Below the pieces are notes generated by a model that did not search any database, was not told the DNA's origin, and worked only from the letters and a program-made list of their open reading frames with translations. From positions 9,660,039 to 9,724,038 of the forward strand of contig OZ025249.1 of NCBI GenBank assembly GCA_964019135.1: a DNA stretch of 64,000 nt, written 5' to 3'. Within the stretch, counting starts at the first letter, position 1. Each line of letters starts with the position of its first letter. Shown here piece after piece: positions 35,475 through 62,890 of this stretch. The translations under genes and the position numbers were made by a program. The DNA is from Arenicola marina (lineage: Eukaryota; Annelida; Polychaeta; Arenicolidae).

Positions 35475-35512
<38 letters not shown>

Positions 35513-38500
35513 TATTTGTACTGCGTTTTTCATCTCAAATAATATATATTACTTAGACATGTAGTTTGATGATGGCTAAATGCTGATAGTCTTGGTTGTT
35601 ATGACGTGCAGACGAGGAGCTGCCGCTGTTTCCCGTGGAGCAGGGCCATCTGCCCGGGATCAAGGCGAGAGTTCAGCTGGCGAGAGAGATCGACACTCTG
35701 GAACACAGGTGAGACAGGGTTGTCTCTGGTTACCCCTGGTATGGCTACAGTAGTAGATAACACAGGTGAGACAGGGGTGTCTCTGGTTACCCCTGGTATG
35801 GCTACAGTAGTAGATAACACAGGTTAGACGGGGTTGTCTCTGGTTACCCCTGGTATGGCTACAGTAGTAAATAACACAGGTGAGACGGGGTTGTCTCTGG
35901 TTACACCTGGTATGGCTACAGTAGTAGATAACACAGGTGAGACGGGGTTGTCTCTGGTTACCCCTGGTATGGCTACAGTAGTAGATAACGCAGGTGAGAC
36001 GGGGTTGTCTCTGGTTACACCTGGTATGGCTACAGTAGTAGATAACACAGGTGAGACGGGGTTGTCTCTGGTTACCCCTGGTATGGCTACAGTAGTAGAT
36101 ATCGCAGGTGAGACGGGGTTGTCTCTGGTTACCCCTGGTATGGCTACAGTAGTAGATAACGCAGGTGAGACGGGGTTGTCTCTGGTTACCCCTGGTATGG
36201 CTACAGTAGTAGATAACACAGGTGAGACGGGGTTGTCTCTGGTTACCCCTGGTATGGCTACAGTAGTAGATAACACAGGTGAGACGGGGTTGTCTCTGGT
36301 TACCCCTGGTATGGCTACAGTAGTAGATAACACAGGTGAGACAGGGTTGTCTCTGGTTACCCCTGGTATGGCTACAGTAGTAGATAACACAGGTGAGACG
36401 GGGTTGTCTCTGGTTACCCCTGGTATGGCTACAGTAGTAGATAACACAGGTGAGACGGGGTTGTCTCTGGTTACACCTGGTATGGCTACAGTAGTAGATA
36501 ACACAGGTGAGACGGGGTTGTCTCTGGTTACCCCTGGTATGGCTACAGTAGTAGATAACGCAGGTGAGACGGGTTGTCTCTGGTTACCCCTGGTATGGCT
36601 ACAGTAGTAGATAACACAGGTGAGACGGGGTTGTCTATGGTTACCCCTGGTATGGCTACAGTAATAGATAACACATGTGAGACGGGGTTGTCTCTGGTTA
36701 CCCCTGGTATGGCTACAGTAGTAGATAACACAGGGGAGACGGGGTTGTCTCTGGTTACCCCTGGTATGGCTACAGTAGTAGATAACACAGGTGAGATGGG
36801 GTTGTCTCTGGTTACCCCTGGTATGGCTACAGTAGTAGATAACGCAGGTGAGACGGGGTTGTCTCTGGTTACCCCTGGTATGGCTACAGTAGTAGATAAC
36901 ACAGGTGAGACTGGGTTGTCTCTGGTTACACCTGGTGTGGCTACAGTAGTAGATAACACAGGTGAGACGTTGTTGTCTCTGGTTACCCCTGGTATGGCTA
37001 CAGTAGTAGATAACACAGGTGAGACGGGGTTGTCTCTGGTTACACCTGGTATGGCTACAGTAGTAGATAACACAGGTGAGACGTTGTTGTCTCTGGTTAC
37101 CCCTGGTATGGCTACAGTAGTAGATAACACAGGTGAGACGGGGTTGTCTCTGGTTACCCCTGGTATGGCTACAGTAGTAGATAACACAGGTGAGACGGGG
37201 TTGTCTCTGGTTACCCCTGGTATTGCTACAGTAGTAGATAACACAGGTGAGACGTTGTTGTCTCTGGTTACCCCTGGTATGTCTACAGTAGTAGATAACA
37301 CAGGTGAGACGGGGTTGTCTCTGGTTACCCCTGGTATGGCTACAGTAGTAGATAACACAGGTGAGACAGGGTTGTCTCTGGTTACCCCTGGTATGGCTAC
37401 AGTAGTAGATAACACAGGTGAGACGGGGTTGTCTCTGGTTACCCCTGGTATGTCTACAGTAGTAGATAACAGAGGTGAGACGGGGTTGTCTCTGGTTACC
37501 CCTGGTATGGCTACAGTAGTAGATAACACAGATGAGACGGGGTTGTCTCTGGTTACCCCTGGTATGTCTACAGTAGTAGATAACACAGGTGAGACGGGGT
37601 TGTCTCTGGTTACCCCTGGTATGGCTACAGTAGTAGATAACACAGGTGAGACGGGGTTGTCTCTGGTTACCCCTGGTATGGCTACAGTAGTAGATAACAC
37701 AGGTGAGACGGGGTTGTCTCTGGTTACCCCTGGTATGGCTACAATAGTAGATAACACAGGTGAGACGGGGTTGTCTCTGGTTACCCCTGGTATGGCTACA
37801 GTAGTAGATAACACAGGTGAGAAGGGGTTGTCTCTGGTTACCCCTGGTATGTCTACAGTAGTAGATAACAGAGGTGAGACGGGGTTGTCTCTGGTTACCC
37901 CTGGTATGGCTACAGTAGTAGATAACACAGGTGAGACGGGGTTGTCTCTGGTTACCCCTGGTATGGCTACAGTAGTAGATAACACAGGTGAGACGGGGTT
38001 GTCTCTGGTTACCCCTGGTATGTCTACAGTAGTAGATAACAGAGGTGAGACGGGGTTGTCTCTGGTTACCCCTGGTATGGCTACAGTAGTAGATAACACA
38101 GGTGAGACGGGGTTGTCTCTGGTTACCCCTGGTATGGCTACAGTAGTAGATAACACAGGTGAGACGGGGTTGTCTCTGGTTACCCCTGGTATGTCTACAG
38201 TAGTAGATAACAGAGGTGAGACGGGGTTGTCTCTGGTTACCCCTGGTATGGCTACAGTAGTAGATAACACAGGTGAGACGGGGTTGTCTCTGGTTACCCC
38301 TGGTATGGCTACAGTAGTAGATAACACAGGTGAGACGGGGTTGTCTCTGGTTACCCCTGGTATGGCTACAGTAGTAGATAACACAGGTGAGACGGGGTTG
38401 TCTCTGGTTACCCCTGGTATGGCTACAGTAGCAGATAACACAGGTGAGACGGGGTTGTCTCTGGTTACCCCTGGTATGGCTACAGTAGTAGATAACACAG

Positions 38501-41500
38501 GTGAGACGGGGTTGTCTCTGGTTACCCCTGGTATGGCTACAGTAGTAGATAACACAGGTGAGACGGGGTTGTCTCTGGTTACCCCTGGTATGGCTACAGT
38601 AGTAGATAACACAGGTGAGACGGGGTTGTCTCTGGTTACCCCTGGTATGGCTACAGTAGTAGATAACACAGGTGAGACGGGGTTGTCTCTGGTTACCCCT
38701 GGTATGGCTACAGTAGTAGATAACACAGGTGAGACGGGGTTGTCTCTGGTTACCCCTGGTATGGCTACAGTAGTAGATAACACAGGTGAGACGGGGTTGT
38801 CTCTGGTTACCCCTGGTATGGCTACAGTAGCAGATAACACAGGTGAGACGGGGTTGTCTCTGGTTACCCCTGGTATGGCTACAGTAGTAGATAACACAGG
38901 TGAGACGGGGTTGTCTCTGGTTACCCCTGGTATGGCTACAGTAGTAGATAACGCAGGTGAGACGGGGTTGTCTCTGGTTACCCCTGGTATGGCTACAGTA
39001 GTAGATAACACAGGTGAGACGGGGTTGTCTCTGGTTACCCCTGGTATGGCTACAGTAGTAGATAACACAGGTGAGACGGGGTTGTCTCTGGTTACCCCTG
39101 GTATGGCTACAGTAGTAGATAACACAGGTGAGACGGGGTTGTCTCTGGTTACCCCTGGTATGGCTACAGTAGTAGATAACGCAGGTGAGACGGGGTTGTC
39201 TCTGGTTACCCCTGGTATGGCTACAGTAGTAGATAACACAGGTGAGACGGGGTTGTCTCTGGTTACCCCTGGTATGTCTACAGTAGTAGATAACAGAGGT
39301 GAGACGGGGTTGTCTCTGGTTACCCCTGGTATGGCTACAGTAGTAGATAACACAGGTGAGACGGGGTTGTCTCTGGTTACCCCTGGTATGGCTACAGTAG
39401 TAGATAACACAGGTGAGACGGGGTTGTCTCTGGTTACCCCTGGTATGGCTACAGTAGTAGATAACAGAGGTGAGACGGGGTTGTCTCTGGTTACCCCTGG
39501 TATGGCTACAGTAGTAGATAACAGAGGTGAGACGGGGTTGTCTCTGGTTACCCCTGGTATGGCTACAGTAGTAGATAACACAGGTGAGACGGGGTTGTGT
39601 CTGGTTACCCCTGGTATGGCTACAGTAGTAGATAACACAGGTGAGACGGGGTTGTCTCTGGTTACCCCTGGCATGGCTACAGTAGTAGATAACACATGTG
39701 AGACGGGGTTGTCTCTGGTTACCCCTGGTATGGCTACAGTAGTAGATAACACAGGTGAGACGGGGCTGTCTCTGGTTACACCTGGTATGGCTACAGTAGT
39801 AGATAACACAGGTGAGACGGGGTTGTCTCTGGTTACCCCTGGTATGGCTACAGTAGTAGATAACGCAGGTGAGACGGGGTTGTCTCTGGTTACCCCTGGT
39901 ATGGCTACAGTAGTAGATAACACAGGTGAGACAGGGTTGTCTCTGGTTACCCCTGGTATGGCTACAGTAGTAGATAACACAGGTGAGACAGGGTTGTCTC
40001 TGGTTACCCCTGGTATGGCTACAGTAGTAGATAACACAGGTGAGACAGGGTTGTCTCTGGTTACCCCTGGTATGGCTACAGTAGTAGATAACACAGGTGA
40101 GACAGGGTTGTCTCTGGTTACCCCTGGTATGGCTACAGTAGTAGATAACACAGGTGAGACAGGGTTGTCTCTGGTTACCCCTGGTATGGCTACAGTAGTA
40201 GATAACAGAGGTGAGACAGGGTTGTCTCTGGTTACCCCTGGTATGGCTACAGTAGTAGATAACACAGGTGAGACAGGGTTGTCTCTGGTTACCCCTGGTA
40301 TGGCTACAGTAGTAGATAACACAGGTGAGACAGGGTTGTCTCTGGTTACCCCTGGTATGGCTACAGTAGTAGATAACACAGGTGAGACAGGGTTGTCTCT
40401 GGTTACCCCTGGTATGGCTACAGTAGTAGATAACAGAGGTGAGACAGGGTTGTCTCTGGTTACCCCTGGTATGGCTACAGTAGTAGATAACAGAGGTGAG
40501 ACGGGGTTGTCTCTGGTTACCCCTGGTATGGCTACAGTAGTAGATAACACAGGTGAGACAGGGTTGTCTCTGGTTACCCCTGGTATGGCTACAGTAGTAG
40601 ATTGGTGCAGGATAAAAAACCTAGGTCTCTCTTGGCCAAGTTTAAGGGTTACTACTGGAGACATGACTGATCTTCACCTTGTCCCTCCCCTTTGATATTA
40701 CAGGATTAGAGGGACATGTCTTTATTCATTACGCTAATAAGTCTTCACTCGCTATCATAATGGACTCGTTCATTACATCGCTATGAAAACACTTATATAT
40801 CTATATATATTTATATAGTGATGATCATCTTTGGCAATACCAGTTGAGAACTGTTCCTTGGTGAAGTGTAGTACTTTAGTTAAGGGTACTTGTGAACAGA
40901 TGATGGCCCAATTTAGACTTCATATGCACAAAGGGGGCCTATAAACGCAACATTTTTTGTCATTAACAGACGATTTGTGAATGGTGGTTTCGCGGTTAGG
41001 AATATACGTCTTCGATATACGTTTACATTTGATACCGTCAACCTTTCTCCGACTACGACAAATGGTTGAATGCTTAACGCCGACTACGTTTTTAGTACTC
41101 TTCACCGAAGCTTACTCTTCTTACAGAACGTCGAAATACAAGAGAGAGAACGACTGGTTTGAGAAGGCCGCGGCGGAATCTGAGATTGTGCTGGATGAGT
41201 TTAGCCTGTATCCTTGATTGCGTGTACAACACAAGTGGAACATTGTAAACGTTGTGTGTTAGATGTGGACGTGCACCTGTCTACAGGTGGTCCGTCGGTC
41301 GGGCGAGTGAGGCTTGCAAACACTCCACCCTCTGTATCCTTTATCATGTTTATAGCATCCACACCATAACATGTGTTTGATGACGTCAGTCTGTATGTTT
41401 TATTGTGTGCACGACATGTCATGTTAGATGACGTCATTCTGTGCTGTATTTGTGTACAACATGGTAGATGACGTCATTCTTCATGCATTATTGCATGTAT

Positions 41501-43194
41501 AACATCACAAATGTTTCAACCATTGGAGGTATACTTAGGTCCCGTGATCTTGACGTCTCTTGACATCAATTCGATTCTATTAAGAAGAATATGTACAGGT
41601 TATGTTGACTACTGCCAACTTTCTGTGCAATGGATGAAACTGACTGTGGAACTGAATTTTATATTATGTAATAACTATAATTTGACTAAGCTGAAAAATT
41701 ATTATGTGTTTGTATACATCAGCAGACGCATGCTTTGTCTTTGTAATGCTAAAGACATCTGACGTTTGTTCTCCTACCAATCCTAAAGTTTGTGAGTGGT
41801 TGCAATAAGGAGTGTTAGACCACAGAGTGGGTATTACGATATGTGACCTTGACCCTGTGAAGGCTCCATGATCTCGGGGATTCACGCGAGCAGTCTCAGC
41901 AGAACCGGATGTTGTCGGAGATGAGAGCCAATCTGACGTCAATGTTGAAAGAGCCGATCATCAGGTCTCAGTCGTATGGGAAATACCCGACTAAGTCAGG
42001 GAAACTCGTGGTACCCTACATGGACCGTAAGTGTAGATTTTGTCTGTGTTAGCGACACATGGTTATGCCTGATATCTTGTGACTCCGATGCTGAAATAGT
42101 TACATTTCGTTTTAATTTGAGCGGCACCGTCACCATGGTACCTTTCGTATTTTAGTTCTCGTTCGTCAGTCTCTTTTTTTAAAGCGGGTGTCCAACCTAA
42201 TCTATATCGCGATCTGCACCAAAAGGTTATCTTAAAATTAGTTTGGCGAATGTTAACGCTTCGTTTAGACCGACTGGTAAGGAACACAAAATTAAGCCAA
42301 CCTGCCCCCATCAATGTCGAGCAGCGAGCCATTTTGCCGAAGCAAGTGACGTATATTGTAACCCTTCATGTGGCGCCGCCTTACGTTATAACTGGAAGTT
42401 TTCTCGCGGAGAGAACTCTTCATAGTGGAGGTACTCTTTAGGGGAAACGCGTGAATCGAGAGACCAGGGTCGCGATTTTCGGAAGAATTGCGGCAGGTTC
42501 ATGCCGCGCAGTAGACCATGCTCTTAGTGTTTCATGGAAAAATAGCATCCAAACATACTGATATACCTCTTGCAACGATTGTCTCCATAAAAGTGATTGG
42601 AGTTAGAATCGCAGCTATTTATATTTGCGATGACCACGCGCTCTTGTTTTGCTCGCACAGTAGGCGTCAGTTCCGGTTAGAATATAATTATAGTGTCGCC
42701 TCCTGATTGGTCAATCGCGGACACACCAAAAAGGGCTGCCGCCTGGTTAAGCGTCGACATCGTGGCTGGCGGTCACTTCAAAATGTTATTGTGGGCTACA
42801 GACAGGACAGAAAATTCTTTAATTTGGAGAACAGACACTAGGGTATTATATGAATCGGTAAAGCAGCGTTAGAGGCCAGGCTGGCGGTTTTCTTTAAGCG
42901 ATTTTTTTGAGCAAAGTCTCGATATGTCTGTACCCTGATCAGATGATTTTGTTTCCGTTTATTTCCTTGTGTTCATAGTATTCTCTTCATTTGGGGAATC
43001 TTGCAGAGGATTCGCTAGGTGGCGCTTTGAGAAAGATGAAGGCAGATCATTCATCCGACAAGAAAATTATGAAGAAGGATTTCGACAGGCGTCAGAAATT
43101 GGCAGAGAAGAAGCACGAGCAGATAGCTGAGAAAAAGAAGAAAAAGATGAACAAAAAGAAAGCAAAGAGGAAGCGTCCCCCTCAAAGTCAGTAA
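23191..43194 (+). CDS. DDX24: ATP-dependent RNA helicase DDX24
   Basis: Sixteen exons: join(23191..23355, 24994..25360, 25601..26034, 26290..26467, 26630..26796, 29507..29611, 29964..30074, 30448..30566, 30906..31036, 31351..31647, 32359..32462, 35092..35209, 35612..35708, 41127..41198, 41863..42026, 43007..43194), 2817 nt, 938 residues (human 859). It is a nucleolar DEAD-box helicase of the DDX24/Mak5 type, linked to large-subunit rRNA processing. Seen: [14 protein letters not shown] and EELTDYDFV near the N-terminus; lysine-rich linkers (exons 2-3); Q motif TPIQ (~299-302); AETGSGKT (~320-327) split between exons 3 and 4; an acidic insert (exons 4-5); PTRELA (450-455); TPGR (499-502); DEAD (526-529); SAT (564-566); [12 protein letters not shown] (~700); HRSGRTARA (730-738); a basic tail. 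All helicase motifs are intact. Introns 5, 11 and 13 hold minisatellites. Confidence 0.97.
23609..24091. mobile_element. mosaic MITE in DDX24 intron 1
   Basis: 23609 onward matches the left end of the 17378-17815 element (CAAGTGCCCCCAGGCAAGCC, AGGGGCACAAC). From 23741 a different inverted repeat takes over: arms 23741-23816 and 24014-24089, about 90 percent complementary (TCTATCTTCTGACATCAAG ...). The core within those arms is again shared with the 17378 element (GCCCTCTAGCGGAGAATGATATC). It is either a nested insertion or a relative that acquired new ends. Confidence 0.75.
26930..29190. repeat. minisatellite, 53-bp unit, ~40 copies (DDX24 intron 5)
   Basis: Units read CAGAGCAGGCTTCCTGGCTG, then TGTATTATAGACCTCTTCTG, then TCCATAATGTCAT, with common C/T variants (CTTCCTGG vs CTCCCTGG; GACCTC vs GATCTC). 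The array starts about 135 bp after the exon 5 donor and ends about 315 bp before exon 6. It does not copy the donor site, but each unit has an acceptor-like TATTATAG. A SINE interrupts the first unit. Confidence 0.95.
26976..27167 (-). mobile_element. tRNA-derived SINE, family B
   Basis: Minus-strand head GTGTAGTGGTTAGCGCACTA and B box CTTCGAATCC, then a unique body; 192 bp. The 13-bp word TCATCAGAGCAGG flanks both sides (26963-26975 and 27168-27180) and is also part of the 53-bp minisatellite unit, so the SINE inserted into an array monomer. Only one copy is seen, so it did not spread with the array. An older relative is at 12753-12917. Confidence 0.92.
32528..33570. repeat. minisatellite, ~31-bp unit, ~33 copies (DDX24 intron 11)
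   Basis: Units read AATGATATATAACACTGGCT then GTCTCAGCTCC, with variants CCTTCTCAG, TTGTCTCAG and TGTCACAG. The array begins about 65 bp after the exon 11 donor and does not include it. Confidence 0.93.
33632..35072. repeat. minisatellite, 36-bp unit, ~40 copies (DDX24 intron 11)
   Basis: Units read GTGTCGGTGGGTCACACTGC then ATCGTCACCTTAGCCA. The array ends about 19 bp before the exon 12 acceptor, so the branch/pyrimidine region lies at its edge, and each unit carries an acceptor-like CACCTTAGCCAG. A block of eleven units is duplicated: rare variants near 34270-34440 reappear 396 bp later. Because 36 is a multiple of three, all-open frames occur on both strands; they are not genes. Confidence 0.95.
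35475..35508. repeat. (ATT)n microsatellite
   Basis: About 11 ATT units with an interruption, in DDX24 intron 12. Confidence 0.9.
35700..40602 (+). repeat. 57-bp minisatellite starting at the exon 13 donor, ~86 copies
   Basis: The array begins at the DDX24 exon 13/intron 13 junction (GAACACAG|GTGAGAC). Each unit runs GTGAGACGGGGTTGTCTCTG, GTTACCCCTGGTATGGCTAC, AGTAGTAGATAACACAG, so every unit ends with the exon-like ACACAG and starts with a donor GTGAGA. Variants ACGCAG, ACAGAG and ACATGT occur at the junction in some units while GTGAG is nearly always kept. It fills about 4.9 kb of a 5.4-kb intron. The unit is a multiple of three; continuing the exon frame meets TGA at once (AGG TGA). Confidence 0.97.
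40603..41126. other. unique 3' part of DDX24 intron 13
   Basis: Non-repetitive AT-rich DNA ending in the acceptor CTTCTTACAG before exon 14. No extra exon seen. Confidence 0.7.
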
Positions 43195-43314
43195 TTAGAA
43201 TGCCAATATGATTTGTCATTGTACCTAACATTTGACACTGCCATTAGATGCAGTGGGGAGAGCCAGCGAATTGGTAAACTCCAGTGTTGTCACTGGGATG
43301 TAACTCGATGTGGA

Positions 43315-43320
43315 AATAAA
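43315..43320 (+). terminator. candidate DDX24 poly(A) signal
   Basis: AATAAA about 120 bp after the DDX24 stop codon (43192-43194), at a plausible distance and on the right strand. Confidence 0.6.
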
Positions 43321-43339
43321 AGCGAAGACACGTATATAG

Positions 43340-46100: not shown

Positions 46101-46189
46101 AGTTTTGATTGGCTGATATGGATATTACGTTAGTCGTCGCCTAACGCGAGAACTGCGCGAACGATGAATGTCCTCGTCGAATGACTATT

Positions 46190-46440
46190 GCGCTGCACGT
46201 GCGTGACCTGACCTCTGACATGACACACACCGTGCGTCACCTCCTGACCTCTGACATGACACACACCGTGCGTGACCTCCTGACCTCTGACATGACACGC
46301 ACCATGCGTGATCTCATGACCTCTGACATGACACGCACCATGCGTGACCTCTGACATGACATGCACCGTGCGAGACCTCATATGACCTTGACATGACACG
46401 CACCTTGCATGACCTCATATGACCTCATTTCATTACACAT
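46190..46440. repeat. degenerate minisatellite, ~33-36-bp unit, ~7 copies
   Basis: Repeats of TGACCTCTGACATGACACRC then ACCRTGCGTG. It lies about 240-490 bp beyond the dystrobrevin stop codon, possibly within its 3' UTR. Confidence 0.85.
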
Positions 46441-46679
46441 ACCACGCATGACGTCCGAACACATAACTCGACTGTTTGACCCCATACAGGGCCGACCCGT
46501 TGTGTCGCATTCCAACCGCGACGTTCCCTCCAAGAGTGACAGCTCCACCCTCGCAGCACTATAACACCTTTCACTGAGCTATCTCCTAACTTCGCACTCT
46601 GCAAACACGAACCCACACGGTTGAACTATGACTTTTGACCTCTGACCCATCCCGACTGTGGCGAGCCCCGCAGCCAGTC

Positions 46680-49600
46680 CTATCTGTTGACCCATCTCCG
46701 GCGGGCGTCCTCCCAGTCCGTATTGCCGCCATCCTCGTCGTCTGTCCGGATGTAGGACTCCTGGTCCGTCTCCAGACACGACTCCTCGTCAGTCGTGTAG
46801 CGGTGAGGCAGCAGCTCCTGACGCGGGCAGAGAGGGACACGGGATGAAGCAGAAGCATGCTATGACAACCCAAGGTCTCGGCCGTTGCCCTTTCTAGATA
46901 TAGCCAGTAATTCCAATGCGACGATGTTCTGAATAATGTATAGGTTGTATTGCATTATGTACCGGTAACAGATTGCCTGGTAACAATATCCCACATCTAG
47001 CCTCGGCAACAAACGAATACTTTTTTTTATTTATAAATACACGTTATGTGTACACGAAGGTTTTGACCACAATGAATCCCCCTTATTGCTTTCGACATCT
47101 GGCTAGTAGAAAGATATTCCCTAAATAAATAATTCCCCCTTACCTTGGGGTCCCTATCCACCCATACCTTGGAGTCCCTAGCTACCCTTACCTTGGGATC
47201 CCTGTCCTGCCCCTAGCCACCCTATACCTTGGGGTCCCTGCTCTATCCCTAGCCACCGTTACATTGGGGTCCCTAGCCACCCTTACCTTGGGGTCCCTGC
47301 TTTATCCCTAGCCACCCTTACCTTGGGGTCCCTAGCCGCCCTTACCTTGGGATCCCTTTCCTGACCCTTGCCACCCTTACCTTGGGGTCCCTGCTCTATC
47401 CCTAGCCACCGTTACATTGGGGTCCCTGCCCTATCCCTAGCCACCGTTACCTTGGGGTCCCTGCCCTATCCCTAGCCACCCTTACCTTGGGGTCACTGCT
47501 CTATCCCTAGCCACCGTTACATTGGGGTCCCTAGCCACCCTTACCTTGGGGTCCCTGCCCTATCCCTAGCCACCCTTACCTTGGGGTCCCTGCCCTATCC
47601 CTAGTCACCCTGACCTTGGGGTCCCTGCCCTATCCCTAGCCACCCTTACCTTGGGGTCCCTGCTCTATCCCTAGCCACCCTTACCTTGGGGTCCCTGCCC
47701 TATCCCTAGCCACCCTTACCTCGGGGTCCCTGCCCTATCCCTAGCCACCCTTACCTTGGGGTCCCTAGCCACCCTTACCTTGGGGTCCCTGCCCTATCCC
47801 TAGCCACCCTTACCTTGGGGTCCCTGCCTTATCCCTAGCCACAGTTACATTGGGGTCCCTGCCCTATCCCTAGCCACCCTTACCTTGGGGTCCCTGCCCT
47901 ATCCCTAGCCACCCTTATCTTGGGGTCCCTGCCCTATCCCTAGCCACCCTTACCTTGGGGTCCCTGCCCTATACCTAGCCACCCTTACCTCGGGGTCCCT
48001 GCCCTATCCCTAGCCACCCTTACCTTGGGGTCCCTGCCCTATCCCTAGCCACCCTTACCTTGGGGTCCCTGCCCTATCCCTAGCCACCCTTACCTCGGGG
48101 TCCCTGCCCTATCCCTAGCCACCCTTACCTTGGGGTCCCTAGCCACCCTTACCTTGGGGTCCCTGCCCTATCCCTAGCCACCCTTACCTTGGGGTCCCTG
48201 CCTTATCCCTAGCCACAGTTACATTGGGGTCCCTGCCCTATCCCTAGCCACCCTTACCTTGGGGTCCCTGCCCTATCCCTTGCCACCCTTACCTCGGGGT
48301 CCCTGCCCTATCCCTAGCCACCGTTACATTGGGGTCCCTAGCCACCCTTACCTTGGGGTCCCTGCTCTATCCCTAGCCACAGTTACATTGGGGTCCCTAG
48401 CCGCCCTTACTTTGGGGTCCCTGCCCTATCCCTAGCCACCCTTACCTCGGGGTCCCTACCCTATCCCTAGCCACCCTTACCTTGGGGTCCCTGCTCTATC
48501 CCTAGCCACCGTTACATTGGGGTCCCTAGCCACCCTTACTTTGAGATCCCTGTCCTATCCCTAGCCACCCTTACCTCGGGGTCCCTGCCCTATCCCTAGC
48601 CACCCTTACCTTGGGGTCCCTGCCCTATCCCTAGCCACCCTTACCTTGGGGTCCCTGCCCTATCCCTAGCCACCCTTACCTCGGGGTCCCTGCCCTATCC
48701 CTAGCCACCCTTACCTTGGGGTCCCTAGCCACCCTTACCTTGGGGTCCCTGCCCTATCCCTAGCCACCCTTACCTTGGGGTCCCTGCCTTATCCCTAGCC
48801 ACAGTTACATTGGGGTCCCTGCCCTATCCCTAGCCACCCTTACCTTGGGGTCCCTGCCCTATCCCTAGCCACCCTTACCTCGGGGTCCCTGCCCTATCCC
48901 TAGCCACCGTTACATTGGGGTCCCTAGCCACCCTTACCTTGGGGTCCCTGCTCTATCCCTAGCCACAGTTACATTGGGGTCCCTAGCCGCCCTTACTTTG
49001 GGGTCCCTGCCCTATCCCTAGCCACCCTTACCTCGGGGTCCCTGCCCTATCCCTAGCCACCCTTACCTTGGGGTCCCTGCTCTATCCCTAGCCACAGTTA
49101 CATTGGGGTCCCTAGCCACCCTTACTTTGAGATCCCTGTCCTATCCCTAGCCACCCTTACCTCGGGGTCCCTGCCCTATCCCTAGCCACCCTTACCTTGG
49201 GGTCCCTAGCCACCCTTACCTTGGGGTCCCTGCCCTATCCCTAGCCACCCTTACCTTGGGGTCCCTGCTCTATCCCTAGCCACCGTTACATTGGGGTCCC
49301 TAGCCACCCTTACCTTGGGGTCCCTGCTCTATCCCTAGCCACCCTTACCTCGGGGTCCCTGCCCTATCCCTAGCCACCCTTACCTTGGGGTCCCTGCCCT
49401 ATCCCTAGCCACCCTTACCTTGGGGTCCCTGCCCTATCCCTAGCCACCCTTACCTTGGGGTCCCTGCTCTATCCCTAGCCACCCTTACCTTGGGGTCCCT
49501 GCTCTATCCCTAGCCACCGTTACATTGGGGTCCCTGCTCTATCCCTAGCCCCCCTTACCTTGGGGTCCCTGCCCTATCCCTAGCCACCCTTACCTTGGGG

Positions 49601-52600
49601 TCCCTGCCCTATCCCTAGCCACCCTTACCTTGGGGTCCCTGCCCTATCCCTAGCCACCCTTACCTTGGGGTCCCTGCTCTATCTCTAGCCACCCTTACCT
49701 TGGGGTCCCTGCTCTATCCCTAGCCACCGTTACATTGGGGTCCCTAGCCACCCTTACCTTGGGGTCCCTGCCCTATCCCTAGCCACCCTTACCTTGGGGT
49801 CCCTGCTCTATCCCTAGTCACCCTTACCTCGGGGTTCCATGCTCTATCCCTAGCCACCCTTACCTTGGGGTCCCTGCCCTATCCCTAGCCACCCTTACCT
49901 TGGGGTCCCTGCTCTATCCCTAGTCACCCTTACCTCGGGGTCCCTGCTCTATCCCTAGCCACCGTTACATTGGGGTCCCTAGCCACCCTTACCTTGGGGT
50001 CCCTGCCCTATCCCTAGCCACCCTTACCTTGGGGTCCCTGCCCTATCCCTAGCCACCCTTACCTTGGGGTCCCTGCCCTATCCCTAGCCACCCTTACCTT
50101 GGGGTCCCTGCCCTATCCCTAGCCACCCTTACCTTGGGGTCCCTGCCCTATCCCTAGCCACCCTTACCTTGGGGTCCCTGCTCTATCTCTAGCCACCCTT
50201 ACCTTGGGGTCCCTGCTCTATCCCTAGCCACCGTTACATTGGGGTCCCTAGCCACCCTTACCTTGGGGTCCCTGCCCTATCCCTAGCCACCCTTACCTTG
50301 GGGTCCCTGCTCTATCCCTAGCCACCCTTACCTTGGGGTCCCTGCTCTATCCCTAGCCACCGTTACATTGGGGTCCCTGCTCTATCCCTAGCCACCCTTA
50401 CCTTGGGGTCCCTGCTCTATCCCTAGCCACCCTTACCTTGGGGTCCCTGCTCTATCCCTAGCCACCCTTACCTTGGGGTCCCTGCTCTATCCCTAGCCAC
50501 CCTGACCTTGGGGTCCCTGCCCTATCCCTAGCCACCCTTACCTTGGGGTCCCTGCTCTATCTCTAGCCACCCTTACCTTGGGGTCCCTGCTCTATCCCTA
50601 GCCACCGTTACATTGCGGTCCCTATCCACCCTTACCTTGGGGTCCCTGCTCTATCCCTAGCCACCCTTACCTTGGGGTCCCTGCTCTATCCCTAGCCACC
50701 CTTACCTTGGGGTCCCTGCCCTATCCCTAGCCACCCTTACCTTGGGGTCCCTGCTCTATCCCTAGCCACCGTTACCTTGGGATCCCTGCTCTATCCCTAG
50801 CCACCGTTACATTGGGGTCCCTAGCCACCCTTACCTTGGGGTCCCTGCTCTATCCCTAGCCACCGTTACATTGGGGTCCCTAGCCACCCTTACTTTGGGG
50901 TCCCTGCCCTATCCCTAGCCACCCTTACATTGGGGTCCCTGCCCTATCCCTAGCCACCCTTATCTTGGGGTCCCTGCCCTATCCCTAGCCACCCTTACCT
51001 TGGGGTCCCTGCCCTATCCCTAGCCACCCTTACCTTGGGGTCCCTGCCCTATCCCTAGCCACCGTTACATTGGGGTCCCTGCCCTATCCCTAGCCACCCT
51101 TACCTCGGGGTCCCTGCCCTATCCCTAGCCACCCTTACCTTGGGGTCCCTGCCCTATCCCTAGCCACCCTTACCTTGGGGTCCCTGCCCTATCCCTAGCC
51201 CCCCTTACCTTGGGGTCCCTGCTCTATCCCTAGCCACCCTTACCTTGGGGTCCCTGCTCTATCCCTAGCCACCGTTACATTGGGGTCTCTAGCCACCCTT
51301 ACCTTGGGGTCCCTGCTCTATCCCTAGACACCCTTACCTTGGGATCCCTAGACACCCTTACCTTGGGGTCCCTGCTCTATCCCTAGCCACCCTTACCTTG
51401 GGGTCCCTGCTCTATCCCTAGCCACCGTTACATTGGGGTCCCTAGCCACCCTTACCTTGGGGTCCCTGCCCTATCCCTAGCCACCCTTACCTTGGGGTCC
51501 CTGCCCTATCCCTAGCCACCCTTACCTTGGGGTCCCTGCTCTATCTCTAGCCACCCTTACCTTGGGGTCCCTGCTCTATCCCTAGCCACCGTTACATTGG
51601 GGTCCCTAGCCACCCTTACCTTGGGGTCCCTGCCCTATCCCTAGCCACCCTTACCTCGGGGTCCCTGCCCTATCCCTAGCCACCCTTACCTTGGGGTCCC
51701 TGCTCTATCCCTAGCCACCGTTACATTGGGGTCCCTAGCCACCCTTACCTTGGGGTCCCTGCCCTATCCCTAGCCACCGTTACATTGGGGTCCCTAGCCA
51801 CCCTTACTTTGGGGTCCCTGCCCTATCCCTAGCCACCCTTACCTTGGGGTCCCTGCCCTATCCCTAGCCACCCTTATCTTGGGGTCCCTGCCCTATCCCT
51901 AGCCACCCTTACCTTGGGGTCCCTGCCCTATCCCTAGCCACCCTTACCTTGGGGTCCCTGCCCTATCCCTAGCCACCCTTACCTTGGGGTCCCTGCTCTA
52001 TCCCTAGTCACCCTTACCTTGGGGTCCCTGCTCTATCCCTAGCCACCGTTACATTGGGGTCCCTAGCCACCCTTACTTTGGGGTCCCTGCCCTATCCCTA
52101 GCCACCCTTACCTTGGGGTCCCTGCCCTATCCCTAGCCACCCTTACCTTGGGGTCCCTGCTCTATCCCTAGTCACCCTTACCTTGGGGTCCCTGCTCTAT
52201 CCCTAGCCACCGTTACATTGGGGTCCCTAGCCACCCTTACTTTGGGGTCCCTGCCCTATCCCTAGCCACCCTTACCTTGGGGTCCCTGCCCTATCCCTAG
52301 CCACCCTTACCTTGGGGTCCCTGCTCTATCCCTAGTCACCCTTACCTTGGGGTCCCTGCTCTATCCCTAGCCACCGTTACATTGGGGTCCCTAGCCACCC
52401 TTACCTTGGGGTCCCTGCCCTATCCCTAGCCACCCTTACCTCGAAGTCCCTGCCCTATCCCTAGCCACCCTTACCTTGGGGTCCCTGCTCTATCCCTAGC
52501 CACAGTTACATTGGGGTCCCTAGCCACCCTTACTTTGGGGTCCCTGCCCTATCCCTAGCCACCCTTACTTTGAGATCCCTGTCCTATCCCTAGCCACCCT

Positions 52601-55600
52601 TACCTCGGGGTCCCTGCCCTATCCCTAGCCACCCTTACCTTGGGGTCCCTGCTCTATCCCTAGCCACAGTTACATTGGGGTCCCTAGCCACCCTTACTTT
52701 GGGGTCCCTGCCCTATCCCTAGCCACCCTTACTTTGAGATCCCTGTCCTATCCCTAGCCACCCTTACCTTGGGGTCCCTGCCCTATCCCTAGCCACCCTT
52801 ACTTTGGGGTCCCTGCCCTATCCCTAGCCACCCTTACTTTGGGGTCCCTGCCCTATCCCTAGCCACCCTTACCTTGGGGTCCCTGCCCTATCCCTAGCCA
52901 CCCTTATCTTGGGGTCCCTGCCCTATCCCTAGCCACCCTTACCTTGGGGTCCCTGCCCTATCCCTAGCCACCCTTACCTTGGGGTCCCTGCCCTAACCCT
53001 AGCCACCCTTACCTCGGGGTCCCTGCCTTATCCCTAGCCACCCTTACCTTGGGGTCCCTGCCCTATCCCTAGCCACCCTTACCTTGGGGTCCCTGCCCTA
53101 TCCCTAGCCACCCTTACCTTGGGGTCCCTGCCCTATCCCTAGCCACCCTTACCTTGGGGTCCCTGCTCTATCCCTAGTCACCCTTACCTTGGGGTCCCTG
53201 CTCTATCCCTAGCCACCGTTACATTGGGGTCCCTAGCCACCCTTACCTTGGGGTCCCTGCCCTATCCCTAGCCACCCTTACCTCGGGGTCCCTGCCCTAT
53301 CCCTAGCCACCCTTACCTTGGGGTCCCTGCCTTATCCCTAGCCACCGTTACATTGGGGTCCCTGCCCTATCCCTAGCCACCCTTACCTCGGGGTCCCTGC
53401 CCTATCCCTAGCCACCCTTACCTTGGGGTCCCTGCCCTATCCCTAGCCACCCTTACCTTGGGGTCCCTGCCCTATCCCTAGCCCCCCTTACCTTGGGGTC
53501 CCTGCTCTATCCCTAGCCACCCTTACCTTGGGGTCCCTGCTCTATCCCTAGCCACCGTTACATTGGGGTCCCTAGCCACCCTTACCTTGGGGTCCCTGCT
53601 CTATCCCTAGACACCCTTACCTTGGGATCCCTAGACACCCTTACCTTGGGATCCCTGCCCTATCCCTAGCCACCCTTAACTTTGGGGTCCCTGCTCTATC
53701 CCTAGCCACCGTTACATTGGGGTCCCTGCCCTATCCCTAGCCACCGTTACATTGGGGTCCCTGCCCTATCCCTAGCCACCCTTACCTCGGGGTCCCTGCC
53801 CTATCCCTAGCCACCCTTACCTTTGGGGTCCCTGCTCTATCCCTAGCCACCGTTACATTGGGGTCCCTGCTCTATCCCTAGCCACCGTTACATTTGGGTC
53901 CCTGCCCTATCCCTAGCCACCCTTACCTTGGGGTCCCTGCTCTATCCCAGCCACCGTTACATTGGGGTCCCTGCCCTACCCCTAGCCACCCTTACCTTGG
54001 GGTCCCTGCCCTATCCCTAGCCACCGTTACATTGGGGTCCCTAGCCACCCTTACCTTGGGGTCCCTGTCGTAGAGCTCGGCGTCCAGCTCCTCGTCTGTC
54101 TTCATGCACGCCTCGTCGTCCGTCTTGACGTAGGAGTCGGCGTCGTCCGTGGCCAGGAAACTCTCGTCGTCCGTCCGGATGTACGACTCGCCGTCGTCCG
54201 TGGCCATATACCTGCAGCGAGAGGTCAAAGGTCAGAGGTCAGAAGTCAACACCGCGCGCCACAATATGACGTCACCACAATAAGTGACGGAACGCCGCCG
54301 CAGGGGTATATATATACTGACGGAAAAAAACGCACCATGACATTTTATTAGAGGTATGTATGGGCATATAAGTGAAACAAATTATACCATAGATTCAGTC
54401 AAAACAAATAACACTTTAAAAATGTAAGAACGTGTAATTGAATTTATCCCCACAACATCGTCATAGACGATGTCCGAGCCTCGGCTGTGTGTCTTGCCCT
54501 GTCCCCCGTACTTACTGGTCGTGGTCGGTGTCCGAGCCCCGGCTGTGTGTCTTGCCCTGTCCCCCGTACTTACTGGTCGTGGTCGGTGTCCGAGCCCCGG
54601 CTGTGTGTCTTGCCCTGTCCCCCGTACTTACTGGTCGTGGTCGGTGTCTGAGCCTCGGCTGTGTGTCTTGCCCTGTCCCCCGTACTTACTGGTCGTGGTC
54701 GGTGTCCGAGCCCCGGCTGTGTGTCTTGCCCTGTCCCCCGTACTTACTGGTCGTGGTCGGTGTCCGAGCCCCGGCTGTGTGTCTTGCCCTGTCCCCCGTA
54801 CTTACTGGTCGTGGTCGGTGTCTGAGCCTCGGCTGTGTGTCTTGCCCTGTCCCCCGTACTTACTGGTCGTGGTCGGTGTCCGAGCCCCGGCTGTGTGTCT
54901 TGCCCTGTCCCCCGTACTTACTGGTCGTGGTCGGTGTCCGAGCCTCGGCTGTGTGTCTTGCCCTGTCCCCCGTACTTACTGGTCGTGGTCGGTGTCCGAG
55001 CCTCGGCTGTGTGTCTTGCCCTGTCCCCCGTACTTACTGGTCGTGGTCGGTGTCCGAGCCCCGGCTGTGTGTCTTGCCCTGTCCCCCGTACTTACTGGTC
55101 GTGGTCGGTGTCCGAGCCCCGGCTGTGTGTCTTGCCCTGTCCCCCGTACTTACTGGTCGTGGTCGGTGTCCGAGCCCCGGCTGTGTGTCTTGCCCTGTCC
55201 CCCGTACTTACTGGTCGTGGTCGGTGTCCGAGCCTCGGCTGTGTGTCTTGCCCTGTCCCCCGTACTTACTGGTCGTGGTCGGTGTCCGAGCCTCGGCTGT
55301 GTGTCTTGCCCTGTCCTCCGTACTTACTGGTCGTGGTCGGTGTCTGAGCCTCGGCTGTGTGTCTTGCCCTGTCCCCCGTACTTAATGGTCGTGGTCGGTG
55401 TCCGAGCCCCGGCTATGTGTCTTGCCCTGTCCCCCGTACTTACTGGTCGTGGTCGGTGTCCGAGCCTCGGCTGTGTGTCTTGCCCTGTCCCCCGTACTTA
55501 CTGGTCGTGGTCGGTGTCCGAGCCTCGGCTGTGTGTCTTGCCCTGTCCTCCGTACTTACTGGTCGTGGTCGGTGTCTGAGCCTCGGCTGTGTGTCTTGCC

Positions 55601-58600
55601 CTGTCCCCCGTACTTACTGGTCGTGGTCGGTGTCCGAGCCCCGGCTGTGTGTCTTGCCCTGTCCTCCGTACTTACTGGTCGTGGTCGGTGTCCGAGCCTC
55701 GGCTGTGTGTCTTGCCCTGTCCCCCGTACTTACTGGTCGTGGTCGGTGTCCGAGCCTCGGCTGTGTGTCTTGCCCTGTCCCCCGTACTTACTGGTCGTGG
55801 TCGGTGTCCGAGCCTCGGCTGTGTGTCTTGCCCTGTCCCCCGTACTTACTGGTCGTGGTCGGTATCCGAGCCTCGGCTGTGTGTCTTGCCCTGTCCCCCG
55901 TACTTACTGGTCGTGGTCGGTGTCCGAGCCCCGGCTATGTGTCTTGCCCTGTCCCCCGTACTTACTGGTCGTGGTCGGTGTCCGAGCCTCGGCTGTGTGT
56001 CCTGCCCTGTCCCCCGTACTTACTGTTCGTGGTCGGTGTCCGAGCCTCGGCTGTGTGTCTTGCCCTGTCCCCCGTCTTTAATGGTCGTGGTCGGTGTCCG
56101 AGCCCCGGCTATGTGTCTTGCCCTGTCCCCCGCACTTACTGTTCGTGGTCGGTGTCCGAGCCTCGGCTGTGTGTCTTGCCCTGTCCCCCGTACTTACTGG
56201 TCGTGGTCGGTGTCCGAGCCTCGGCTGTGTGTCTTGCCCTGTCCCCCGTACTTACTGGTCGTGGTCGGTGTCTGAGCCTCGGCTGTGTGTCTTGCCCTGT
56301 CCCCCGTACTTACTGGTCGTGGTCGGTGTCTGAGCCTCGGCTGTGTGTCTTGCCCTGTCCCCCGTACTTACTGGTCGTGGTCGGTGTCCGAGCCCCGGCT
56401 ATGTGTCTTGCCCTGTCCCCCGTACTTACTGGTCGTGGTCGGTGTCCGAGCCTCGGCTGTGTGTCTTGCCCTGTCCCCCGTACTTACTGGTCGTGGTCGG
56501 TGTCCGAGCCTCGGCTGTGTGTCTTGCCCTGTCCCCCGTACTTACTGGTCGTGGTCGCTGTCCGAGCCCCGGCTGTGTGTCTTGCCCTGTCCCCCGTACT
56601 TACTGGTCGTGGTCGGTGTCTGAGCCTCGGCTGTGTGTCTTGCCCTGTCCTCCGTACTTAATGGTCGTGGTCGGTGTCCGAGCCTCGGCTGTGTGTCTTG
56701 CCCTGTCCCCCGTACTTACTGGTCGTGGTCGGTGTCCGAGCCTCGGCTGTGTGTCTTGCCCTGTCCCCCGTACTTACTGTTCGTGGTCGGTGTCTGAGCC
56801 TCGGCTGTGTGTCTTGCCCTGTCCCCCGTACTTACTGGTCGCGGTCGGTGTCTGAGCCTCGGTTGTGTGTCTTGCCCTGTCCTCCGTACTTACTGGTCGT
56901 GGTCGGTGTCCGAGCCTCGGCTGTGTGTCTTGCCCTGTCCCCCGTACTTACTGGTCGCGGTCGGTGTCTGAGCCTCGGTTGTGTGTCTTGCCCTGTCCTC
57001 CGTACTTAATGGTCGTGGTCGGTGTCCGAGCCTCGGCTGTGTGTCTTGCCCTGTCCCCCGTACTTACTGGTCGCGGTCGGTTGCTTGATTATTCAGGACG
57101 CTTTAACCACTTTTGGTCATATCGCGTCAATGGGAGAAGGAAGGGAGAGTGGAGCCATGTCCCCGGGGGTAACCCCCTACTCTTTACGAAGAAAGACATG
57201 GAATCTTTATCCTGCGACCACACAGACATGGCCACAGCAGGGCTCGAACCACCGACCCACGTGCCGTTAGGCTCTCAGGTGACCAGAGCACTCAATGCGA
57301 GCGCTCTAGCCCACTGAGCTGTCGCGCCGGCCCCTGTGGTCGTGGTCGGTGTCTGAGCCTCGGCTGTGTGTCTTGCCCTGTCCTCCGTACTTAATGGTCG
57401 TGGTCGGTGTCCGAGCCTCGGCTGTGTGTCTTGCCCTGTCCCCCGTACTTACTGGTCGTGGTCGGTGTCTGAGCCTCGGCTGTGTGTCTTGCCCTGTCCC
57501 CCGTACTTACTGTTCGTGGTCGGTGTCTGAGCCTCGGCTGTGTGTCTTGCCCTGTCCTCCGTACTTACTGGTCGTGGTCGGTGTCCGAGCCTCGGCTGTG
57601 TGTCTTGCCCTGTCCCCCGTACTTACTGGTCGTGGTCGGTGTCTGAGCCTCGGCTGTGTGTCTTGCCCTGTCCCCCGTACTTACTGGTCGTGGTCGGTGT
57701 CCGAGCCTCGGCTGTGTGTCTTGCCCTGTCCCCCGTACTTACTGGTCGTGGTCGGTGTCTGAGCCTCGGCTGTGTGTCTTGCCCTGTCCCCCGTACTTAC
57801 TGTTCGTGGTCGGTGTCTGAGCCTCGGCTGTGTGTCTTGCCCTGTCCTCCGTACTTACTGGTCGTGGTCGGTGTCCGAGCCCCGGCTGTGTGTCTTGCCC
57901 TGTCCTCCGTACTTAATGGTCGTGGTCGGTGTCCGAGCCTCGGCTGTGTGTCTTGCCCTGTCCCCCGTACTTACTGTTCGTGGTCGGTGTCTGAGCCTCG
58001 GCTGTGTGTCTTGCCCTGTCCCCCGTACTTAATGGTCGTGGTCGGTGTCCGAGCCTCGGCTGTGTGTCTTGCCCTGTCCTCCGTACTTAATGGTCGTGGT
58101 CGGTGTCCGAGCCTCGGCTGTGTGTCTTGCCCTGTCCTCCGTACTTAATGGTCGTGGTCGGTGTCCGAGCCTCGGCTGTGTGTCTTGCCCTGTCCCCCGT
58201 ACTTACTGTTCGTGGTCGGTGTCTGAGCCTCGGCTGTGTGTCTTGCCCTGTCCCCCGTACTTACTGTTCGTGGTCGGTGTCTGAGCCTCGGCTGTGTGTC
58301 TTGCCCTGTCCCCCGTACTTACTGGTCGTGGTCGGTGTCTGAGCCTCGGCTGTGTGTCTTGCCCTGTCCCCCGTACTTACTGGTCGTGGTCGGTGTCTGA
58401 GCCTCGGCTGTGTGTCTTGCCCTGTCCCCCGTACTTACTGGTCGTGGTCGGTGTCCGAGCCTCGGCTGTGTGTCTTGCCCTGTCCCCCGTACTTAATGGT
58501 CGTGGTCGGTGTCCGAGCCTCGGCTGTGTGTCTTGCCCTGTCCCCCGTACTTACTGTTCGTGGTCGGTGTCTGAGCCTCGGCTGTGTGTCTTGCCCTGTC

Positions 58601-61600
58601 CTCCGTACTTACTGGTCGTGGTCGGTGTCCGAGCCTCGGCTGTGTGTCTTGCCCTGTCCCCCGTACTTACTGGTCGTGGTCGGTGTCCGAGCCTCGGCTG
58701 TGTGTCTTGCCCTGTCCTCCGTACTTACTGGTCGTGGTCGGTGTCCGAGCCTCGGCTGTGTGTCTTGCCCTGTCCTCCGTACTTACTGGTCGTGGTCGGT
58801 GTCCGAGCCTCGGCTGTGTGTCTTGCCCTGTCCTCCGTACTTACTGGTCGTGGTCGGTGTCCGAGCCTCGGCTGTGTGTCTTGCCCTGTCCCCCGTACTT
58901 ACTGGTCGTGGTCGGTGTCTGAGCCTCGGCTGTGTGTCTTGCCCTGTCCTCCGTACTTACTGGTCGTGGTCGGTGTCTGAGCCTCGGCTGTGTGTCTTGC
59001 CCTGTCCCCCGTACTTACTGGTCGTGGTCGGTGTCCGAGCCTCGGCTGTGTGTCTTGCCCTGTCCTCCGTACTTACTGGTCGCGGTCGGTGTCCGAGCCT
59101 CGGCTGTGTGTCTTGCCCTGTCCCCCGTACTTACTGGTCGCGGTCGGTGTCCGAGCCTCGGCTGTGTGTCTTGCCCTGTCCCCCGTACTTACTGGTCGTG
59201 GTCGGTGTCCGAGCCTCGGCTGTGTGTCTTGCCCTGTCCCCCGTACTTACTGGTCGTGGTCGGTGTCCGAGCCTCGGCTGTGTGTCTTGCCCTGTCCTCC
59301 GTACTTACTGGTCGTGGTCGGTGTCTGAGCCTCGGCTGTGTGTCTTGCCCTGTCCCCCGTACTTACTGTTCGTGGTCGGTGTCCGAGCCTCGGCTGTGTG
59401 TCTTGCCCTGTCCCCCGTACTTACTGGTCGTGGTCGCTGTCCGAGCCTCGGCTGTGTGTCTTGCCCTGTCCCCCGTACTTACTGGTCGTGGTCGGTGTCC
59501 GAGCCTCGGCTGTGTGTCCTGCCCTGTCCCCCGTACTTACTGGTCGTGGTCGGTGTCCGAGCCTCGGCTGTGTGTCTTGCCCTGTCCCCCGTACTTACTG
59601 GTCGTGGTCGGTGTCCGAGCCTCGGCTGTGTGTCTTGCCCTGTCCTCCGTACTTACTGGTCGTGGTCGGTGTCCGAGCCTCGGCTGTGTGTCTTGCCCTG
59701 TCCCCCGTACTTACTGGTCGTGGTCGGTGTCCGAGCCTCGGCTGTGTGTCTTGCCCTGTCCTCCGTACTTACTGGTCGTGGTCGGTTGGTTGATTATCCA
59801 GGACGCTTTAACCACTTTTGGTCATATCGCGTCAATGGGAGAAGGAAGGGAGAGTGGAGCCATGTCCCCGGGGGTAACCCCCTACTCTTTACGAAGAAAG
59901 ACATGGAATCTTTATCCTGCGACCACACAGACATGGCCACAGCAGGGCTCGAACCACCGACCCACGTGCCGTTAGGCTCTCAGGTGACCAGAGCACTCAA
60001 TGCGAGCGCTCTAGCCCACTGAGCTGTCGCGCCGGCCCCTGTGGTCGTGGTCGGTGTCCGAGCCTCGGTTGTGTGTCTTGCCCTGTCCCCCGTACTTACT
60101 GGTCGTGGTCGGTGTCCGAGCCTCGGCTGTGTGTCTTGCCCTGTCCCCCGTACTTACTGGTCGTGGTCGGTGTCCGAGCCTCGGCTGTGTGTCTTGCCCT
60201 GTCCCCCGTACTTACTGGTCGTGGTCGGTGTCCGAGCCTCGGCTGTGTGTCTTGCCCTGTCCCCCGTACTTACTGGTCGTGGTCGGTGTCCGAGCCTCGG
60301 CTGTGTGTCTTGCCCTGTCCCCCGTACTTACTGGTCGTGGTCGGTGTCCGAGCCTCGGCTGTGTGTCTTGCCCTGTCCCCCGTACTTACTGGTCGTGGTC
60401 GGTGTCCGAGCCTCGGCTGTGTGTCTTGCCCTGTCCCCCGTACTTACTGGTCGTGGTCGGTGTCCGAGCCTCGGCTGTGTGTCTTGCCCTGTCCCCCGTA
60501 CTTACTGGTCGTGGTCGGTGTCCGAGCCTCGGCTGTGTGTCTTGCTGTGGCCCTGTTTCCGGGCGCGGAGTTCCTGAAGGAAGTCGTTCTCCTGCTGCAG
60601 CCGGAGCCGCATCTCCTCCCGCCAAGCCTGGAAGTCGTCCACACTGGAGTCTCCCAGGTCTACAAGGAAACCAAGTCACAACAATCCCGTATTGATCATA
60701 ATATTGATAATAATGCGGTATTAAGAGTATAATATTGATAATAATGCGGTATTAATTATAATTTTCATAATGAGGCGCTATTAAAATTATAATTTTCATG
60801 CGGGATTCAAATGATAATATACCTAATAATTCGGTATTCACAATAATGGTGCCAATTACCTTTTCATAGTGTTCGTAATCTAGAGATCTTTTTAATTTTG
60901 TTAATGTTCTACCTAGCGCCAGGTACGGTTGATGAATACGGCTCCAGACTATACACAACACACGTAACGGTAACTATCCAATAATAATAACTTGCTCCAC
61001 GTTACAAACCGGCTGGGTAGTTTGCTTTGGTCGAGGACGCCTGAGCAGAAATGTCAAGTCACACACTGAGACGAGGGCGTGAATTTGAAGAACTTCGGAG
61101 ACTGGGGACTAACTACCGCACAGGGCACAGGGTTCACGAGTCACCGTGTCTCTGTGATGAGCGCAACCTGAACCTTACCACTCAATCCCTTCTTGTCCTT
61201 GTCAGGGTTGGAGCCTCCCCAGTCGTACCCCTCATCTTCGTCACCTTCGCTGCCACTGGAGGCCTCTGTAAGGGAACACTCACAGCAATGACATACGGGG
61301 AGATACACAGATCCTAGGCTAGGTCTATGGCTGTGGCTGTGGCGGTAAACAGTGTCCGGTCCGATGTTTGCCCGTCTTACAGCACAGGACCATGGACTAA
61401 TGATAACATATTTAGGCGTGGAACAAGCATGACTCGTTTACCAAGGCAGGACAATAAACGTTGATTTGAAATGGTATACGTTGTCACAGGTCAATAAATA
61501 CAGACTTTGGTCACGTATACATGTGTAAAGGGTTAAATATATCTAGTTTTTGCCAATCCTGACTAACATATATATGATACATATATCACTGCGGGACAGT

Positions 61601-62135: not shown

Positions 62136-62523
62136 CTGGAAATGAAACATCAGACATCAGACAAATATTATGGAAGTACAACATGAATACTGACAACAAC
62201 CGCTGATGTTTGTCTATTCAGTGAACGACCTCTTCATGCTGATCATTGTGGTCCTCGCACAAGTTACAACGATCACGAGGATATGTATGAAATAACGTTT
62301 ACAAATGGTGCCGCGTAAGACGCCCTGAGCCTAGCGGCCTACGCAGGTGCACAGCCAGATGAAGCACTCCCACGGATGCCTCTAACTCAGGGAGCTATGA
62401 AGGGAGCTGTGAAGGCAGTATAGGTACGATAAAGTACCGTCCATGATGCCTCTTGCCCAGGGGGCTATGAAAGCGCTATAAAGAAAGCCCGGGACGCCAT
62501 GAAGGCTCTATAGATATCATGAG

Positions 62524-62890
62524 GCACCGCCAATGATGCATAGCCTCCGCCATCATGAAGCACCGCCAATGATGCATAGTCTCCGCTACCATGAAGCACC
62601 GCCAATGATGCATAGCCCCCGCCATCATGAAGCATCGCCAATGATGCATAGCCTCCGCTACCATGAAGCCCCGCCAATGATGCATAGCCCCCGCCATCAT
62701 GAAGCATCGCCAATGATGCATAGCCCCCGCCATCATGAAGCATCGCCAATGATGCATAGCCTCCGCTACCATGAAGCCCCGCCAATGATGCATAGCCTCC
62801 GCTACCATGAAGCCCCGCCAATGATGCATAGCCTCCGCTACCATGAAGCCCCGCCAATGATGCATAGCCTCCGCTACCATGAAGCACCGC
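62524..62890. repeat. 36-bp minisatellite, ~10 copies (dystrobrevin intron)
   Basis: Units read ATGAAGCACCGCCAATGATG then CATAGCCTCCGCTACC with variants CCCCGCCAT and AAGCATCGCC. Upstream at 62340-62520 diverged pieces (GCCTCT, AGGGAGCTATGAA) look related. The open frames on both strands come from the 36-bp period. No donor-like sequence is repeated. Confidence 0.93.

Follow-up and report, generated by a model that had tools for sequence, protein, structure and literature searches.

How does an intron come to carry dozens to hundreds of copies of its own splice junction, and how can its gene still be spliced? The question is raised by three minisatellite arrays in a 64,000-nucleotide (nt) stretch of Arenicola marina contig OZ025249.1 (hereafter the window), which lie in three introns of two genes, a DDX24-like RNA helicase gene on the + strand and a dystrobrevin gene on the - strand. 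A first-pass annotation had proposed that all three arrays begin at an exon/intron junction and repeat it. Array calls in the window with Tandem Repeats Finder (TRF), combined with spliced gene models, confirmed that tandem arrays carrying copies of the splice signal straddle a junction in each of the three introns. The junction is indeed copied, in two genes and on both strands; the arrays, however, reach into the exon by 7 nt (57-bp array), 40 nt (58-bp array) and 12 nt (35-bp array; 13 nt by direct unit comparison) rather than beginning at its edge.

Architecture of the arrays and their host genes

Each array occupies almost the whole of its intron. The array of 57 base pairs (bp) accounts for 90% of the DDX24 intron 35709-41126, with 524 bp left before the acceptor. 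The 58-bp array, two 255-bp insertions counted in, makes up 96% of the dystrobrevin intron 54212-60505 (259 bp left), and the 35-bp array likewise 96% of the dystrobrevin intron 46818-54054 (319 bp left). In the latter array, the TRF core runs from 47175 to 54042, and rows of 24 bp extend it to 47137 and 54066. The GT of the donor is intact in 84/86, 85/95 and 204/209 of the donor-bearing units (57-, 58- and 35-bp arrays, respectively). With 15 further donors in the window as the basis of a scoring matrix, 71 units of the 57-bp array, 85 of the 58-bp array and 122 of the 35-bp array equal or surpass the exon's own donor, itself counted.

The DDX24-like gene, most of which lies in the window, was modelled with 15 exons (24994-43194), its first exon or exons lying outside the model, and the last five exons of the dystrobrevin gene occupy 62135-46680. 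Every junction used in both models is GT/AG. The spliced frame of dystrobrevin is open throughout, as is that of DDX24 with the exon start at 41863 placed by comparison with a relative. The DDX24 protein contains the Pfam domains DEAD and Helicase_C; the dystrobrevin protein has no Pfam match, and its named database matches include many dystrobrevins. Furthermore, a 2190-bp contig (P0074), whose protein is 89% identical to DDX24, reads through the normal exon junction EHR/TSK. With the open spliced frame and the same DDX24 junction in this relative, normal splicing may be kept. Computed reading frames indicate what the use of a distal donor would bring: every donor tested in the 57-bp and the 58-bp array would lead to an immediate stop; in the 35-bp array, the third donor would insert a part free of stops and shift the frame, and a stop would follow from each tested donor beyond the third.

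Table 1. Positions in the window of the junction-straddling arrays, the exons that they enter, the insertions and the control arrays
Feature	Position	Strand	Basis
57-bp array, 86 units (TRF 86.0 copies), straddles donor at 35709	35702..40602	+	TRF and gene model
58-bp array, 95 donor-bearing units, two interruptions, straddles donor at 60505	54471..60545	-	TRF and gene model
35-bp array with 24-bp variants, 209 donor-bearing units, straddles donor at 54054	47137..54066	-	TRF and gene model
DDX24 exon, last 7 nt inside 57-bp unit	35612..35708	+	gene model and relative's protein
Dystrobrevin exon, last 40 nt inside 58-bp unit	60506..60659	-	gene model
Dystrobrevin exon, last 12-13 nt inside 35-bp unit	54055..54211	-	gene model
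255-bp insertion in 58-bp array, copy 1	57082..57336	.	sequence comparison
255-bp insertion in 58-bp array, copy 2, 2/255 differences, same unit phase as copy 1	59787..60041	.	sequence comparison
Control 53-bp intronic array, 371 nt from donor	27168..29190	+	array/gene-model comparison
Control 31-bp intronic array, 67 nt from donor	32530..33578	+	array/gene-model comparison
Control 36-bp intronic array, ends 20 nt before acceptor of DDX24 exon 35092-35209	33679..35071	+	array/gene-model comparison
Control short 31-bp intronic array, 379 nt from donor, 38 nt from acceptor	60698..60799	-	array/gene-model comparison
Control 36-bp array upstream of dystrobrevin exon 61844-62135; intron cut by window end	62518..62898	-	array/gene-model comparison

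Placement and turnover within the window

Three of the eight intronic arrays in the window straddle a donor, and the other five, situated in the same two genes, do not. Under uniform placement of each array inside its own intron, three of eight on donors has P = 0.0146, rising to P = 0.0724 if either junction is counted. Because the window was chosen post hoc for its striking look, this probability is modest evidence only, and the assertion that chance placement is implausible goes too far. The 12 array-free introns of the window measure 162 to 980 bp; all five introns longer than 2 kb contain arrays, and after subtraction of the arrays the introns of the window measure 162-1484 bp.

The mean departure from consensus per unit position is 1.5% (57 bp), 2.6% (58 bp) and 4.2% (35 bp), and unit types are numerous, with 26 distinct among 85, 23 among 94 and 42 among 167 units of modal length, respectively. 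In the 58-bp array, a unit spacing of 327 bp is seen twice, and a block of approximately 2.7 kb was probably copied, since the two copies of the 255-bp insertion share one unit phase and differ at two positions. Unit types of this array show no block repeat in the shuffle analysis. By the same analysis, a run of 9 unit types recurs in the 35-bp array (at most 6 in 300 shuffles). Translated sequence resembling the 255-bp insertion is also present at 9086-9370 and 12896-13198, which suggests a dispersed repeat. Variant alleles per site at donor and other positions amount to 0.56/0.44, 0.44/0.65 and 0.89/0.88 in the three arrays, without a consistent signal of selection on the intronic decoy donors; because variants are about equally frequent in both kinds of position, the intronic donors give no clear indication that they are either preserved or purged.

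Origin of the arrays

The explanation that we favour, with a probability of roughly two in three, is an ordinary tandem duplication spanning the junction, expanded by unequal exchange and tolerated as the exon-proximal site is kept. A short tandem duplication would by chance have spanned the exon end and the donor, as the exon overlaps suggest, and unequal exchange and slippage may then have expanded it into the intron, consistent with the block duplication in two of the three arrays. The copy nearest the exon would provide the authentic exon end together with a good donor, allowing normal mRNA to be made, and the other copies would be intronic decoys. From the computed frames, the use of a distal donor would mostly lead to an early stop, with the transcripts probably lost or useless. 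At acceptors, the exon-proximal acceptor would likewise be retained. In a genome whose introns are widely inflated by minisatellites, junctions would often be included as the splice signal tolerates duplication, and donors would not have to start the arrays.

Other loci of the assembly (867,369,267 bases in 762 contigs) bear on this account. Two further arrays on contig C1 enter an exon at its donor end: a 39-bp array at 606 kb shares 16 nt with an exon with an aldehyde dehydrogenase (ALDH) match (E 3.3e-8), and a 34-bp array at 1.754 Mb shares 3 nt with an exon whose Lustrin_cystein match is weak (E 2.8e-5, below the curated cut-off). With exon overlaps of 7, 40, 13, 16 and 3 nt in five arrays, there is no fixed breakpoint, and an exact array start at the donor, as first described, is not what is observed. 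Acceptors are hit too. A 41-bp array at locus L039 (1-1520, approximately 645.8-647.3 kb on C1) straddles the acceptor of an ALDH-like gene and comprises 31 units whose core resembles TTTCAG/TGACGTGGACGG, AG being present in 30 of them, and its last unit is the exon start; this array lies approximately 40 kb from the donor-straddling array at 606 kb (L030). Since the overlaps vary (3-40 nt) and acceptors are also affected, a precise donor-seeding mechanism is not needed. In addition, 41 minisatellite-type arrays cover 84,697 of 200,000 bp (42%) in 20 hand-picked 10-kb stretches; the genome is unusually repeat-filled, and with arrays covering so much of the sampled DNA, junctions would often be hit.

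Exons were also sampled by protein family. The sample comprised 13 Aldedh matches and 12 matches to kinases, the latter lying in 11 stretches picked out of 122 listed; junctions were assigned by eye, and copies of duplicated genes (L034, L037, L043) and unassignable ends were excluded. An array lies within 20 nt of 4/16 assigned donors (L033, L038, L045, L051) and 2/11 acceptors (L039, L042), so no bias towards donors is seen in these exons (Fisher p = 1.0); a looser count of the same sample (4/18 donors, 2/12 acceptors) gives the same p. Some of the listed kinase matches, on small contigs (C443, C465, C504, C330, C652 and others), contain in-frame TAG and TAA and are possibly foreign DNA from an organism in which these codons encode residues. 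Dozens of kinase-like open frames of approximately 280-320 aa are situated on a single chromosome (C3, approximately 14-57 Mb), perhaps an expanded intronless family, and C5:5402476-5437356 contains five kinase-like copies of equal score, approximately 8.5 kb apart.

Several observations weigh against the favoured explanation. Use of the second donor of the 35-bp array would lengthen the protein by 8 residues, in frame and with no stop, and the premature-stop argument therefore does not hold for every array. Splicing at the proximal donor is predicted from the gene models and the relative's protein. The 57-bp array displays no block structure above shuffles (5 versus up to 7 in shuffles). In size, the three donor-straddling arrays rank above the other five intronic arrays, an arrangement expected in 1 of 56 cases. 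A search of the whole assembly for three AGGTRAGT spaced 30-60 bp gave 20,846 matches, compared with 6,818 for the motif backwards, 10,520 for a scramble, 8,049 for the scramble reversed, 4,404 for AGGARAGT and 11,219 for AGGARAGT reversed; the donor motif in tandem is therefore 1.9-4.7 times as common as the five controls and 2.54 times their mean. Non-array DNA of the 20 stretches (112,756 bp) contains no excess of the donor motif (5 versus 6, 3, 12, 5 and 4), which suggests, with small numbers, that the tandem excess is not mere background and reflects more than random placement.

These counts speak for the principal competing explanation, in which donors are hot spots and duplications are set off at the 5' splice site by transcription or splicing (R-loops, stalled polymerase, or breaks at GT-rich ends), an origin that we consider unlikely. 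The position of the three largest arrays on donors also speaks for it, as does the purine-rich sense strand of the donor arrays (p = 0.025, one-sided, n = 3 versus 5), the one hint of R-loop seeding; part of this purine richness comes from the donor motif itself. The G skew of the 58-bp array, however, is next to none (0.02). The near-miss AGGARAGT, one base off and richer in purines, is 4.7 times rarer in tandem than the donor motif, and this control fits donors as birthplaces better than a mere preference for purine-rich sequence. However, large arrays weigh heavily on the numbers of matches (5,924 versus 14,922 for AGGTRAGT on the two strands), real donors may raise the motif background, for which the 113-kb check is small, and AGGTRAG or its reverse appears in the consensus of 0/41 arrays from the sampled stretches. 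At the level of arrays, among the first 100 matches listed, the donor pattern gives four arrays in 1.75 Mb of C1 and two controls give 26 in 63.1 Mb (p = 0.008); in the same first 1.75 Mb, the near-miss control has two arrays and the scramble none. Contact with an exon is shown for 2/4 of these arrays only, as the sequence read at 331 kb and 1.09 Mb stops short of the array edge, and the units at 1.09 Mb are mostly GATAAG. With only two of the four proven at exons, the array-level excess would not stand. For the donor-linked duplication first suggested, the commoner tandem donor motif gives partial support; a restriction to donors is not supported. In its widest form, in which donors are genome-wide birthplaces of minisatellites that grow to dozens to hundreds of near-perfect decoy donors, ignored by the spliceosome and inflating introns, the explanation is doubtful.

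It is quite improbable that the arrays are functional, serving as ladders of U1 sites or as AG/GT dual-specific sites in exon definition, transcript protection or stepwise intron removal. AGGT is found at the unit donor in 82/86 units of the 57-bp array and 148/209 of the 35-bp array, and in the literature UBC makes use of dual-specific sites in tandem (PMC10809524) and U1 bound downstream of the donor can aid splicing of PAH exon 11 (PMC5933811). The 58-bp array, however, has AGGT in 0/95 units, the intronic donors bear no sign of selection, and pyrimidines make up on average 0.35-0.47 of the sequence upstream of repeat sites, versus 0.65 at true acceptors. Recursive splicing was rejected on the same weak pyrimidine tracts and the lack of AGGT in the 58-bp array.

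An assembly artefact, or chance placement alone, is more improbable still. Long homogeneous arrays are difficult to assemble, and P is only 0.015-0.07; against this, the units differ from one another (26 distinct in 85 in the 57-bp array) and similar structures stand beside coding exons at other loci, even if array copy numbers could still be wrong. Least probable of all is that the introns themselves were made by tandem duplication, as proposed for amphioxus globins and human repeats in PMC3087553 and PMC2812944; 259-524 bp outside the array and a normal acceptor are retained in every one of these introns, which in this respect closely resemble those without arrays.

Known counterparts and biological meaning

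The 'mirages' of amphioxus that the first-pass annotation had named are in print (PMC3087553, PMC3902484). In the accessible portions of these and the other reports cited below, mirages are tandem repeats over exon-intron boundaries, occurring at either intron end (5' and 3') in globin genes of amphioxus and, as cited there, in Adh3 (PMC3087553), with further cases in PGBD5 and troponin C (PMC3902484). Their units measure 10-72 or 60-160 bp, many with splice signals, and regular splicing is described as apparently undisturbed by them (PMC3087553, PMC3902484), in line with the favoured explanation; for the Adh3 mirage, somatic instability is reported, as quoted in citing literature. In the single assembly used here, the copied 255-bp insertion may be an indirect trace of length instability. 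Human segmental duplications contain internal tandem repeats at exon-intron boundaries, with units of 30 bp on average and approximately 4 units on average (PMC2812944).

As in the mirages of Adh3, the globins BflGb6 and BflGb9, PGBD5 and troponin C, the repeats described here are minisatellite-like, span an exon-intron boundary and carry the splice signal in their units. Compared with those of amphioxus globins and PGBD5, which have 2-7 units, the present arrays contain 86-209 units and extend over 5-7 kb each. They also belong to another phylum, with DDX24 grouping with annelids here and mirages being known from a cephalochordate, a difference of taxon and not of structure. The human repeats are minisatellites at boundaries as well (PMC2812944), but they alter exons or form new introns, whereas the gene model here needs no extra exon. 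The tandem dual-specific sites of UBC and VCX3A resemble the units of two of the three arrays, most of which contain AGGT (PMC10809524); UBC units, however, are coding and variably spliced, whereas the present units are intronic and poor as acceptors. The arrays therefore belong with junction-spanning minisatellites, a known kind, from which they differ in phylum and size, and are very large cases in a repeat-rich genome. A search of the open-access literature found no report of such arrays outside cephalochordates and human.

The phylogenetic position of the locus was assessed with both host genes. Among the best 120 of 4140 DDX24 matches, full-length named ones reach 54-61% in annelids and molluscs and 56-57% in Branchiostoma, and the B. 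lanceolatum match reaches 64% over 69% of the query. In the DDX24 tree (22 rows), the window protein groups with P0074 (100/100) and both with the annelid rows (87/91), and Branchiostoma groups with vertebrates (99/97). Support for the placement with annelids suggested by these protein comparisons is moderate, not decisive; an amphioxus affinity of the locus was rejected by the matches and the tree. The dystrobrevin tree did not resolve the placement of the window gene. In Ridgeia, the DDX24 (P0004) and dystrobrevin (P0076) entries have a common contig tag, NP493_109, and the genes may be neighbours there too. Within a DDX24 exon, acidic 21-bp repeats are coding (26659-26749), with a shorter stretch in P0074.

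The three arrays extend a structure known from amphioxus and, in short form, from human segmental duplications to a distant invertebrate, with 86-209 units. If confirmed, they would offer a natural test of how the spliceosome chooses the exon-proximal donor among dozens of equals, and the birth of minisatellites at gene junctions could be measured in this genome.

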